A stretch of 64,000 nt of DNA from Fuerstiella sp. (lineage in GTDB: Bacteria; Planctomycetota; Planctomycetia; Planctomycetales; Planctomycetaceae), in contig JAPYTO010000007.1 of the NCBI GenBank assembly GCA_029941865.1, forward strand, positions 1-64,000, in the 5' to 3' direction. The position numbers and the translations under genes are program-made. How positions within the stretch are numbered: position 1 is the first letter of the stretch; every line of letters begins with the position of its first letter. Below, in pieces: positions 1-7,377 of the stretch. The notes beneath the pieces were generated by a model. It saw only the letters and a list, made by a program, of their open reading frames with translations, was not told the DNA's origin and searched no databases.

Positions 1-62
1 CCAACGGCAGAGGCATCCGGTTTAAGCCCGGTAAGTTGTGGGTTCGAATCCCACCCACGTCA
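1..62 (+). tRNA. tRNA-like, anticodon TAA (Leu-UUA), 5' end cut by window edge
   Basis: Anticodon loop TTTAAGC (21-27) in stem CCGG/CCGG; T-arm GTGGG-TTCGAAT-CCCAC (38-54); 3' acceptor CCACGTC + A62; 5-nt variable loop; no encoded CCA. Confidence 0.75.
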
Positions 63-77
63 TGAATCACAAAACAC

Positions 78-150
78 GGCACCGTAGCCCAACGGCAGAG
101 GCGCTCGGCTTAGAACCGAGATGTTGGGAGTTCGAATCTCCCCGGTGCTA
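78..150 (+). tRNA. tRNA-like, anticodon TAG (Leu-CUA), class I variable loop
   Basis: Acceptor GGCACCG (78-84)/CGGTGCT (143-149); anticodon stem CTCGG/CCGAG with loop CTTAGAA; T-arm GGGAG-TTCGAAT-CTCCC; 5-nt variable loop; no CCA. Confidence 0.8.
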
Positions 151-155
151 CTTTT

Positions 156-240
156 GGGCTTTGTTCCTCATGACGGTCTGTAAAACCGTTGTCAATAAAA
201 ATTGAGGTGGTGACGAAAGGTTCGATTCCTTCAAAGCCCA
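156..240 (+). tRNA. tRNA-like, anticodon GTA (Tyr), long variable arm, no D-arm
   Basis: Acceptor GGGCTTT (156-162)/AAAGCCC (233-239); anticodon stem ACGGT/ACCGT with loop CTGTAAA; variable region contains TCAAT-AAAA-ATTGA hairpin; only 10 nt between acceptor and anticodon stem. Confidence 0.65.
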
Positions 241-253
241 ATCTCACAGCAGC

Positions 254-329
254 GGCCGGGTACGCAAACAGGCAAAGCGGCGAGCGTGAGAGGCTCGTGA
301 TGATGTGGGTTCGATTCCCACCCCGGTCA
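254..329 (+). tRNA. tRNA-like, anticodon GAG (Leu-CUC), class I variable loop
   Basis: Acceptor GGCCGGG (254-260)/CCCGGTC (322-328); anticodon stem CGAGC/GCTCG with loop GTGAGAG; T-arm GTGGG-TTCGATT-CCCAC; 7-nt variable loop. Confidence 0.78.
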
Positions 330-823
330 CTAACACCAGTTCGACCAGTCAGAAGACAGCTGCAGACGGCTGGGCGGAAGCGGACTTAGCACTCAGGATC
401 GCTGTATGCGCAGGAACTGCCGGTATCATTACGCAAGCGATCAGGCGATAGCGGATTGCCTTGTTCTGCGTGGCGAGTTCGTCTTGACCGGCTTTTCAAC
501 GATAAAATAGAACCCAACCTCAATAGCCTCGCCCCGATCTGATTGCGCCAAAACGTCGTTGTGATTGGCGTTTACACGGAAACGGTCGGTGGCGAAGCCG
601 TTCTCTCACTCCTCTCAATCTCTCCTCTTCATTCTCAATCACACCCCTGAGTTCAGGGGATGGCGCAGCCTTCGCGTTCTGCAGAGCTTGCCAACACGCC
701 AAGATTCCTATCTCTCATTTTCAATTCGTGATCCCAACGCATGTCCTGCTGTTTGAGTTACATGCTGGACGTCAGCCATCGCGGCGGATGCGTCAACGAA
801 TTCGCCCTGGGTGAAAACTCCAG

Positions 824-1963
824 ATGAAAACATTTAGTTCTGGATGCCGAAAGCCGTGGCTGACACACAGCGGTCAGCTGCGATTGCCAGCAAACGCCGT
901 AAGCATTGTGGCATGCATGGGGGCAGTTCTGCTTGCCGGATGCCAGAGCGGCAACCACTACTACGCCCAATCCATGCCGCGTAGCCTGCGGCTGACGGCG
1001 CAATCCAATCCACAGGAAGCAGATCTGTCGCGACTGGCCAGCGCAACCGGCGGCAGCCAGACAATCGGTCGCGGAGACGTTCTGGAAGTTTCGATCGCAG
1101 CAAGTTTGAGCAAGGACGATCAGTTCAAGATGTCAGTCCGAGTTGCTGACAACGGGACTGCAACATTGCCGGACATTGGGCCGGTATCACTTGCCGGTGT
1201 TGAACCCCAGGCCGCTGAAGCCCTGATCGCTCAGGAGGCGGTGACCAAGGGATTCTATCGCAATCCTACGGTTACGGTTTCGTACCTCAGCAGAAAAATG
1301 AACCGCGTTCGAGTTCTTGGTGCCGTAAAAGAACCGAGCACGTATGAACTTCCCCCCGGTGAAAGTGATGTGGTTTCAGCCATCGCGGCTGCGGGCGGAC
1401 TGGCAGAAAACGCTGGCGAGAACGTCGAGATACGTAACCCGAACCACGGTTCTTCCGGTCGGCGACCGGTCGTCGCCGGAGACCCATCGACTCCGTATTC
1501 AACAGTCAGTGCAACAGCTCCGGAAAACGGCATGAAGTCTTACACCATCAATCTGGTGTCCGCCGCCAAAGCCGGAACAAGCACGTATGTCATTGAAGAC
1601 GGCGGCGTGGTCATGGTTGAAAAACGTGACCCGGCCCCGATCAAGGTGGGTGGGCTGGTTCATAAACCCGATGAATATGATTTTCCCGTGGGCAAGGACC
1701 TGACCGTATTGGGAGCAATTTCTTTGGCGGGCGGGACCAGCAACCAATTGGCGGACAAAGTATTCGTGATTCGCCCGTTGGTGAATTCGAAAGATCCCGC
1801 CGTGATTCAGGTAAGTCTTCGGAAAGCCAAGAAGATGGGCCGAGAGAACATTCTCCTCGGTCCGGGCGACATCGTCTGGGTTGAGCAGACGTCCGGAACG
1901 GTCTTCATGGAAGCGTTGCAGTTGATCCGATTCGGAGTTTCCGGATCAGCGCCGCTGTTCTGA
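824..1963 (+). CDS. Polysaccharide biosynthesis/export lipoprotein (Wza-like, SLBB domains)
   Basis: Lipobox-like VLLAGCQSG; GRGDVLEVSI and VRVLGAVKEPSTYELPPG motifs; next to a Wzc-like gene. Confidence 0.85.
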   Translation: MKTFSSGCRKPWLTHSGQLRLPANAVSIVACMGAVLLAGCQSGNHYYAQSMPRSLRLTAQSNPQEADLSRLASATGGSQTIGRGDVLEVSIAASLSKDDQFKMSVRVADNGTATLPDIGPVSLAGVEPQAAEALIAQEAVTKGFYRNPTVTVSYLSRKMNRVRVLGAVKEPSTYELPPGESDVVSAIAAAGGLAENAGENVEIRNPNHGSSGRRPVVAGDPSTPYSTVSATAPENGMKSYTINLVSAAKAGTSTYVIEDGGVVMVEKRDPAPIKVGGLVHKPDEYDFPVGKDLTVLGAISLAGGTSNQLADKVFVIRPLVNSKDPAVIQVSLRKAKKMGRENILLGPGDIVWVEQTSGTVFMEALQLIRFGVSGSAPLF

Positions 1964-4554: not shown

Positions 4555-7377
4555 GTGTCCCACCTCGTAGCCATCGAAGATCGACATGGTCGATTATCGA
4601 ACACGCTGCTGAACGCGGTGGATGTACTGATCGGTGCTCTGATCTTCGGACTACCGTTCATCATGGGCGGTCGCGAAGCGTGGGGACACTGGTTTCTGAT
4701 CTCAACCGCCTTTCTGCTGGGTGCCACATGGGCCACGTACGCAACGATCCGCGGGTGTCGGTACAGCGTGTCGTGGTTCGAAGTGTTTTTCATCGCCGGG
4801 CTGGCCATCGTCGCGTTCCAGCTGCAGCCGCAGTCGCCCGACACGATGCAGACGTTTTCAGCCGAATACCAGCGTCTGCTGCCCACGTGGCCGGAAACTC
4901 AGACCTCCGCTGTAGAAACGGGCCACGGGTGGTCCACCTTAAGTCTGACCCCCACCGAATCGCGACACGGCTGGTGGATGTTTCTGGCCTATGCCGTGAT
5001 CACCACCGTGCTGTTCCAGCGCGTGCGGCAGCAGAAAGACTGCCACCGACTGTTGCAGTCCGTTGCCATTGTCGGAGTAGCGATGACGGGCTTCGGATTG
5101 TTTCAATGGGCCACATCGAATGACCGATTTTTCTGGTTCTACCAGCATCCGTTCACAGAACCAACAGTCCACCTGAAAGGCGCATTCACAAACCGCAACC
5201 ATTTTGCGCAGTTCCTGTCTCTGACAATCGGCCCGTTGTTGTGGTGGCTGGTTTACAGCGTAAAATCGATTTCTGACGGCAGCACCTCGGAATCGACCAA
5301 GACTCCACAACCACGAAAACGATCTCGTTCAAAGAAGACCGGGCGCCAGCGACGCAGTTCATCGTGGAACAATGTGGAACGCAGCCTGACAATCCCCGTT
5401 CTGCTGCTGCTTTGTGGCGTCTCGGTCGTCATTCTGGCCGTCCTGTTGTCGCTGTCGCGCGGAGGCATGATTGCGGCCGGTGCCGCCACACTGGTGGCAC
5501 TGATCGGTTTGTGGCGAGGATTCAAAGTTGGCGGCGCGATGGCAGGTCTGCTGCTTGGTGGCGGCGTATTGTTTCTGTCTATGCTGTCCTTTGCCGACCA
5601 GGAACAGGTGCAGACCAAAATCGACCAATTGATTTCCACCGATGCGGACGAGATCGACTCCGGAGGAAACCGTCGCGCTGTCTGGGCGGCCGACGCAGAA
5701 GTGATTCAGCGATTTCCTTTGCTGGGAACCGGTGTCGGCAGTCATCGCGATGTGTATTCGATGTACATGGAAAACTACGCGGACTTCGCCACATCGGAAA
5801 TGACCCACGCCGAAAGCAGCTTCGTACAGGTGGCTCTGGAAACAGGGTTCATCGGCGCTGGCTGTCTTGCACTGGCGCTGCTGGTTCTACTGATTCGTCT
5901 GGGCGTCGGTTACTTTCGTAAAACTTCCGAGGCCTGCCGCGCCTGTACGGCCGCTGTCGCTGCCAGCGCCGCCGCCGGGATTCTGCATGCGGTCACTGAC
6001 TTCATCTGGTATGTCCCTGCGATCGTTGTGATCAGCCTGGTCCTGATGGTTGTTGGCCTGAAGGCTGCGTCGCGAAACTTCGGTAAGGATGCCACTTCTG
6101 CAGGCATCTGGTTTCCCCGAGTGGGCTGGGCGGTCACAGGAGGTCTGTGTTTGCTGGCGTGCGTTCAGCTGCAGCCGGAACTTCAGGCACGCATCGCTGC
6201 AGAAAAACACTGGTATGCATTTCTACGAACCGAACTGGAAGTACAGTTCGACGATTCAGACGGCTATGCCGACCTGAAGGAAGGAGACATCGTTTCCGTT
6301 GAGATCCAGCCAGTTTCTTTCCTGAAGTTTGAAGAGCCGGAAAACAACGTGGAACACGCTGCTCGTGAACAGGCGGCCCAACTTGCGTTCGTTCGCGAGC
6401 GTATCGAACATTTGACGGCATCGCTGAAGGCCGTTCCAAACCAGCATCGCGTCCAATTGGCCCTGTCCGAACAATTGCTGCGACTGTTCGATCTGTTGCA
6501 GGAACGCAGCGATAATCCAATGCCGCTAAAAATGATTCGTGATGCTGCGGTCACAAATTTTTCGGATGCCGGTGAGCGTCAGGACTGGGTGAAGATCGTA
6601 TGCAACGACCGTATCCGATTAATCAAACTGGCAGATCAGCTGCTGCGAGACTCGCTGAAAGGTTGTCCTGTTCAGGGTCACGCCTACCTGACGCTGCTGG
6701 ACACCGCATTCTGCACGCAACGTTCCGATCTTCATCATCAGAAACTGATTGATCAGGCGATGCTGGTCCGAGGACATGACCCTCGGGTACGTTTCGTGGC
6801 CGGACGGGAAGCACTTCTCAGTGGCGACAAAGAGACAGCTCTGCGACTCTGGGAATCCGTCTTCCATTCGAATCAATACTTCCGACTCGGAATTCTGAAG
6901 CTCGTAGCATCTCAGCTGCCAGCGGAATTCTTTCTGCAGCAATTCCAGCCGGACTCCGACGAACTGCTGGACCTGCTGAACGTCTACGATCTACTCAAAC
7001 GCGAACGCGATTCCACCGTTATTCTGAATCGACTCTGCGAAGTCATCCCCAAAGAAGCGCCGAGCATTGAGGACGAAGAGGAACGTGAAGAGAAAATGTT
7101 CATCGCGTATCAGGCGGCCCGAAAGCTTGAAGATCTGGAACGAGCGATTGAGATTCTGCAGGTCGTCATCGAAGACTTTCCGCTTTCCTATGAACCGCGC
7201 TACCATCTGGCCATGACCCTGGTAGAACTGGAACGACCGCAGGAAGCCCTGGATCACCTGCAGTGGTGCCACGATCAGGATCCGGGCAACATCTGGGTCC
7301 CCGATCTGATTCGCCGCGCTCGTGAACAGATACTGAAACTCCCGGAAGACGATCACGCGCCGTTGATGCGGCTTTGA
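4555..7377 (+). CDS. O-antigen ligase/polymerase family protein with C-terminal TPR-like region
   Basis: Many TM segments; Wzy_C-like LSLSRGGMIAAGAAT and HAESSFVQVALETGFIG; tail with repeats such as ERAIEILQVVIEDFPLSYEPRYHLAMTLVELERPQEAL. Confidence 0.82.
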   Translation: MSHLVAIEDRHGRLSNTLLNAVDVLIGALIFGLPFIMGGREAWGHWFLISTAFLLGATWATYATIRGCRYSVSWFEVFFIAGLAIVAFQLQPQSPDTMQTFSAEYQRLLPTWPETQTSAVETGHGWSTLSLTPTESRHGWWMFLAYAVITTVLFQRVRQQKDCHRLLQSVAIVGVAMTGFGLFQWATSNDRFFWFYQHPFTEPTVHLKGAFTNRNHFAQFLSLTIGPLLWWLVYSVKSISDGSTSESTKTPQPRKRSRSKKTGRQRRSSSWNNVERSLTIPVLLLLCGVSVVILAVLLSLSRGGMIAAGAATLVALIGLWRGFKVGGAMAGLLLGGGVLFLSMLSFADQEQVQTKIDQLISTDADEIDSGGNRRAVWAADAEVIQRFPLLGTGVGSHRDVYSMYMENYADFATSEMTHAESSFVQVALETGFIGAGCLALALLVLLIRLGVGYFRKTSEACRACTAAVAASAAAGILHAVTDFIWYVPAIVVISLVLMVVGLKAASRNFGKDATSAGIWFPRVGWAVTGGLCLLACVQLQPELQARIAAEKHWYAFLRTELEVQFDDSDGYADLKEGDIVSVEIQPVSFLKFEEPENNVEHAAREQAAQLAFVRERIEHLTASLKAVPNQHRVQLALSEQLLRLFDLLQERSDNPMPLKMIRDAAVTNFSDAGERQDWVKIVCNDRIRLIKLADQLLRDSLKGCPVQGHAYLTLLDTAFCTQRSDLHHQKLIDQAMLVRGHDPRVRFVAGREALLSGDKETALRLWESVFHSNQYFRLGILKLVASQLPAEFFLQQFQPDSDELLDLLNVYDLLKRERDSTVILNRLCEVIPKEAPSIEDEEEREEKMFIAYQAARKLEDLERAIEILQVVIEDFPLSYEPRYHLAMTLVELERPQEALDHLQWCHDQDPGNIWVPDLIRRAREQILKLPEDDHAPLMRL

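Follow-up and report, generated by a model that had tools for sequence, protein, structure and literature searches.

A chromosomal tRNA gene array in the planctomycete Fuerstiella: class I leucine tRNAs in a probable reduced relative of phage and plasmid tRNA arrays

Why should a bacterium carry, side by side, several leucine tRNA genes without the long variable arm that is proper to them? The question is raised by the left end of contig C7 in the assembly (8.04 Mb in 612 contigs) of a marine planctomycete, Fuerstiella. The window analysed here is the 64,000-nucleotide stretch at that end, and its positions 1-330 hold four tRNA-like genes: Leu(TAA), Leu(TAG), a gene with a Tyr anticodon and no D-arm, and Leu(GAG) (Table 1). 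A sequence-only reading of this DNA had counted four such genes in about 330 nt, and the count is confirmed: three pass the cut-off of the cmscan tRNA model (gathering cut-off 29 bits), with scores (61.4, 45.2 and 33.8 bits) that are far above chance, while the fourth is recovered weakly, through the tRNA-Sec model. The same reading had assigned variable loops of 5-7 nt to the genes with Leu anticodons TAA, TAG and GAG (the measured values are 5, 5 and 7 nt) and had remarked that CCA is not encoded. That, too, is correct, but it is ordinary: the scattered tRNA genes of a complete congeneric genome, G004, do not encode CCA either, and its absence from the array is therefore unremarkable.

Table 1. 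Features at the left end of the window (positions in the window)
Feature	Position	Strand	Evidence
tRNA-Leu(UAA), 3' part, class I	1..62	+	variable loop 5 nt, A73; cmscan 33.8 bits, truncated by contig edge
tRNA-Leu(UAG), class I	78..150	+	variable loop 5 nt, A15:U48, A73; cmscan 61.4 bits
D-armless tRNA-like gene, anticodon GUA	156..240 (155-240 in cmscan)	+	33.7 bits against tRNA-Sec
tRNA-Leu(GAG), class I, last gene of the array	254..329	+	variable loop 7 nt, A15:U48, A73; 45.2 bits
Polysaccharide export gene (Poly_export, SLBB), downstream neighbour	824..1963	+	Pfam; blastn synteny L038, L039

The first of these genes is cut by the contig edge, and its remainder can be found. The 3'-terminal 55 bases of contig C482 (3,920 bp) are identical to window positions 1-55; the missing 5' part of Leu(UAA) lies there (L011:3855-3920), and ARAGORN calls the whole gene once the overlap is joined. 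The joined array comprises 11 genes on a single strand in about 1.4 kb, in the order Lys(ttt), Asn(gtt), Ser(cga), Gly(tcc), Gln(ttg), Leu(caa), Asp(gtc), Leu(taa), Leu(tag), Tyr-like(gta), Leu(gag); the first seven, all complete, are supplied by C482, as the prediction of further members beyond the window edge required. On its left the array is bordered by a divergent ORF (L011:430-1995), which we take, from its sequence by eye, to be leuA (2-isopropylmalate synthase), and on its right by the Poly_export/SLBB exopolysaccharide gene. The join is independently supported: a single blastn alignment of 1083 bp in the congener G007 crosses the junction, and G007 and a second congener, G001, share with the window genome both the order of the array genes and the genes that flank them. 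By blastn, the Poly_export gene adjoins the array syntenically in all three species, and ARAGORN makes 9 and 11 calls in the two syntenic congeners.

Is this, then, the tRNA cluster of a prophage or of some other integrated element? Phage genes would be expected around it; what is found is the leuA-array-Poly_export synteny, with no phage Pfam matches among the nearby proteins scanned. The sequence-only reading had suggested looking for integrase genes upstream, and none adjoins the array in the window genome, whose flanks are the presumed leuA and the exopolysaccharide operon. Scanned for consensus promoters, the array strand showed none upstream of the array, although planctomycete promoters may not fit the consensus. 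(Two further observations belong here. In the complete genome G004, a tyrosine recombinase gene with a Phage_integrase match, L040:4814-6127, ends within the last gene of an array, tRNA-Leu(tag) at 4781-4854, where an element therefore seems to have integrated. The Asn-Ser spacer contains a short repeat of roughly 37 bases, L011:3114-3150, which recurs elsewhere in the genome, in G000 contigs C471 and C101, and in G003, G005 and G007.)

The leucine members pose the sharper puzzle. The four array Leu genes have variable loops of 5, 5, 5 and 7 nt and so lack the long class II arm of canonical bacterial tRNA-Leu; the housekeeping Leu genes of the window genome (caa, gag and tag) have variable loops of 14-16 nt. 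Nor are they allo-tRNAs, which have 8/4 or 9/3 acceptor and T stems: theirs are 7/5, and the eighth acceptor pair that ARAGORN draws for Leu(UAA) is -1:73. The E. coli leucyl-tRNA synthetase (LeuRS) requires A73, A15-U48, G18G19 and A20a, and variants that lack the variable arm remain active (reviewed in PMC9976931). A73, A15:U48, G18G19 and A20a are all present in all four array Leu genes. The pattern extends beyond Fuerstiella: of the 35 Leu-anticodon tRNAs found in planctomycete arrays, 33 belong to class I, with variable loops of 4-8 nt, and the other two have 12-13 nt; every one of the 33 class I genes has A73, and 29 of them have A15:U48 together with A73. Among the other class I array tRNAs, just 23 of 167 show this combination (Fisher test against the 29 of 33, p = 1e-16, a value that is only indicative because the rows are related sequences). 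In a count of GGnA20a, 42 of 43 retain it. One full-length LeuRS-type gene was found in each of 12 of 13 genomes (G006 has no match over the cut-off); weaker matches are fragments of other class I synthetase-like frames, and in none of the 13 genomes searched was a second full-length bacterial-type LeuRS seen that might be dedicated to the array. Since the determinants are kept and there is one full LeuRS-type gene wherever any is detected, the simplest reading of these sequences is that the ordinary LeuRS probably charges the array leucine tRNAs, and does so with leucine. (The Leu(UAA) gene at window 1-62 has the anticodon loop TTTAAGC, in which G37 follows A36; this is unusual, and it is kept in G007 and G003.)

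What do these genes add to the tRNA repertoire? In the complete congener G004, scattered genes make up a full tRNA set; its two arrays have 16 distinct anticodons, of which 14 are also encoded outside them. Array and housekeeping tRNAs of the same anticodon mostly share only about half to two-thirds of their positions: 48/86 for Leu(caa), 48/84 for Leu(TAG), 45/84 for the window's Leu(GAG) against its own genome's Leu(gag), 41/77 for Gln, 49/75 for Lys and, somewhat closer, 55/76 for Asn. The low identity is found in both G000 and G004; array genes compared with G004 array genes are 83-99% identical. Judged by these comparisons, the array is redundant with the housekeeping set (in the complete congener) and does not appear to derive from recent internal duplication. 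(The second G004 array, L105:5185-6244, lies apart from the first and contains Phe, Glu, Arg, Thr and Tyr genes and an unusual "Ser(act)" call.) The presence of this second array suggests that, within Fuerstiella, ancestral arrays have been divided among several loci.

Redundancy invites decay, and the array might be no more than the remains of an ex-prophage or ex-plasmid tRNA cluster, its genes now functionless pseudogenes. Genes have been lost between species, gene content shifting among the syntenic congeners; arrays are fragmented over several loci in G002, G003 and G005; and the D-armless element lacks an intact anticodon stem in G001. As gene content erodes, some of the array may indeed be disappearing. 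Yet the genes that remain do not look like debris: orthologues of the array tRNAs are 88-99% identical to those of the window genome in G007 and 80-97% in G001, against 65% and 61%, respectively, for the spacers, and across these two species the orthologues show few broken pairs and a few compensatory changes. Even the least conserved orthologue, Leu(taa), is 88% (G007) and 80% (G001) identical; for Leu(UAG) at 78..150 identity is 98.6% (G007) and 95.9% (G001), all 20 of its pairs being unchanged, and Leu(gag) has no orthologue at the array's place in either genome. T-loops are intact, and complete tRNA-model matches in the array score 41-68 bits as cloverleaves. Because gene identity of 80-99% stands against spacer identity of 61-65%, the array is not decayed, which makes the pseudogene explanation improbable; the comparison shows purifying selection acting on mature tRNA structure.

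The really odd member of the array is the D-armless Tyr-like gene. Direct reading of the letters shows an acceptor stem of 7 bp without mismatch (156-162/233-239), a T-arm and an anticodon arm, ACGGT-CTGTAAA-ACCGT, with the anticodon GTA (Tyr), and just 10 nt where the D-arm usually lies; its tRNA-Sec score lies below that family's cut-off of 47 bits. The D region could be linked with the variable region by a helix of CCTCA (166-170) with TGAGG (203-207), and predicted folds use this pairing or an overlapping one. In G007 the element is 92% identical, with a double, compensatory change of an anticodon-stem A:U to G:C; in G001 a 4-nt insertion disrupts that stem. Among 59 genomes it was found only in three Fuerstiella genomes (one more match is a 24-base piece), and no source for it could be demonstrated among array or housekeeping tRNAs, the best global scores being low and mixed. 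With three sequences to go by, it may be either a Tyr gene in the course of being lost or a true D-armless tRNA; that it is a functional bacterial tRNA(GUA), with the D-region/variable-region helix replacing the D-arm and kept by selection in one lineage of Fuerstiella, we regard as improbable.

Where might such an array have come from? Related arrays with overlapping gene order exist in other genomes, larger ones among them in other genera of planctomycetes: 32 genes in G022, 23 in G049, 21 in G048, 15 (and 8 elsewhere) in G039, and others in G030 and in the other Fuerstiella genomes. Dense, confined to one strand and of many isotypes, the Fuerstiella array has the organization of an L-array or tRNA array unit. 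Array units have been defined as containing at least 20 tRNA genes (PMC5966550), and the 11 genes of the window array fall short of that number, while the relatives with 32, 23 and 21 genes exceed it; the window array is, for that reason, best regarded as a reduced relative of theirs. A plasmid search with window positions 60-340 gave no match, and neither did a search of viral contigs with an exact class I Leu pattern, which was probably too strict.

The reading that we favor, and consider likely, is that this is a reduced, horizontally derived, redundant L-array of translationally competent tRNAs that are charged by LeuRS and used under stress. The array would have been acquired long ago, probably from a phage or plasmid gene pool; of an ancestral set numbering about 30, most genes would since have been lost and the remainder inherited vertically. 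Its leucine members would be class I simply because the tRNA-Leu of this pool lacks the long variable arm. They would be charged by the ordinary LeuRS, which reads A73 and the D-loop/T-loop/15-48 core and does not depend on the variable arm, and they would decode UUA, CUA, CUC and UUG. In normal growth the array would probably be little used; when housekeeping tRNAs are damaged or translation is stressed, it would supplement or replace them. Such use has been shown for the Anabaena array alone (below), from which its timing in Fuerstiella is taken. Several facts sit less comfortably with this reading: the unusual G37 next to A36 in the window's Leu(UAA) loop, the lack of a consensus promoter upstream on the array strand (with the reservation already made), a gene content that is eroding, and a number of genes below that by which array units are defined.

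What else could the array be for? Under anti-defence, or self-rescue, its members would differ in structure from the host's tRNAs and take their place when anticodon nucleases, colicin-like toxins or retron effectors cleave them; the sequence-only reading had likewise proposed nuclease-resistant replacements. Phage tRNAs do rescue depletion of tRNA-Tyr and tRNA-Lys (PMC11555353), the tRNA arrays of Mycobacterium have been termed putative antidefence (PMC12803027), and the arms of the array tRNAs are unlike the housekeeping arms. Against this, the anticodon loop of the array Lys(ttt), CTTTTAA, is the same as the housekeeping loop, the array is chromosomal and syntenic with housekeeping genes, and no PrrC-type anticodon nuclease scores over the cut-off in the Fuerstiella genomes searched, although such nucleases may also be borne by phages, plasmids or competitors. 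We hold this role to be possible but on balance unlikely as the primary explanation; it is compatible with stress use of a translational array, and does not exclude it. Far less can be said for non-translational tRNAs, serving as aminoacyl donors for modification of envelope, lipid or peptide. The exopolysaccharide operon at the border of the array, to which such a function could be tied, and short variable loops that are odd for Leu are what recommends the idea; in G002-G006 and in other genera the arrays have other contexts, the wza/leuA neighbours being seen only in L038 and L039 (blastn), the anticodons span many amino acids with decoding loops intact, and no gene for a Fem/aminoacyl-tRNA transferase was found among the nearby proteins scanned. 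We consider it highly improbable. The sequence-only reading had offered decoys along with non-translational tRNAs; with LeuRS determinants kept and purifying selection on the genes, neither proposal finds support.

The literature that was searched contains no report joining tRNA arrays with planctomycetes. Here, arrays are chromosomal and syntenic, are maintained by purifying selection from one species to the next, and are not transient mobile cargo. Of the arrays examined, those of planctomycetes, cyanobacteria and phages alike contain class I tRNA-Leu, with the core determinants of LeuRS retained, and this generates a testable rule: the "wrong-class" leucine tRNAs of arrays should still be charged by the ordinary bacterial LeuRS.

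How does the Fuerstiella array compare with systems already known? Leucine tRNAs without a long variable arm are also found in metazoan mitochondria, where they are recognised through A73 and A14 (PMC9976931); being organellar and served by another LeuRS, this case is an analogy only. The array units of Mycobacterium (and of its phages and plasmids) resemble the window array in being clustered, redundant tRNAs that are not copies of the host set, and a tRNA-Leu(TAG) with a short variable loop has already been published from a Mycobacterium cluster (PMC6582537); they differ in having 20-39 genes in another order, often with HNH endonuclease genes. In the clusters of Gordonia phage Boopy and Vibrio phage phi-ST2, 6 of 7 called Leu genes are class I, with the same kind of D-loop as those of the window, and the window's Leu(GAG) is 79.5% identical to Boopy Leu(caa) over 78 bases; these clusters sit in phage genomes, and the phi-ST2 genes, unlike those of the window array, encode CCA. 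The fullest parallel is the L-array (trn operon) of the Anabaena (Nostoc) sp. PCC 7120 plasmid pCC7120delta, likewise a dense, same-strand set of redundant tRNA genes. It is plasmid-borne and yields 24 ARAGORN calls, against 11 genes, chromosomal and syntenic, in Fuerstiella. Its expression and its control by TrcR are established: TrcR represses the Anabaena array, and rtcB together with it, and translation inhibitors induce the array (PMC10272220). (In G039 contig C2 an RtcB RNA ligase gene, 496553-497632, lies about 7 kb from the array at 504215-506512, which may be chance; 34 of the 35 genomes have RtcB, those with an array and those in which none was seen alike, and its presence is therefore uninformative.) The Anabaena and planctomycete arrays are alike in their class I leucine tRNAs with A15:U48, A73 and a 3-bp D-stem (4 of 4 in pCC7120delta) and in their class II Tyr and Ser(gct). 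The suggested resemblance to the tRNA arrays with odd members of mobile elements and phages is thus borne out by the same class I tRNA-Leu in phage and Anabaena-plasmid arrays; because planctomycete, Anabaena, phage and Mycobacterium arrays all carry such genes, class I Leu can be considered, on comparison of these sequences, a recurrent trait of the array pool. The Fuerstiella array is one of a known kind, reduced and vertically kept: neither debris nor a novel class of RNA.
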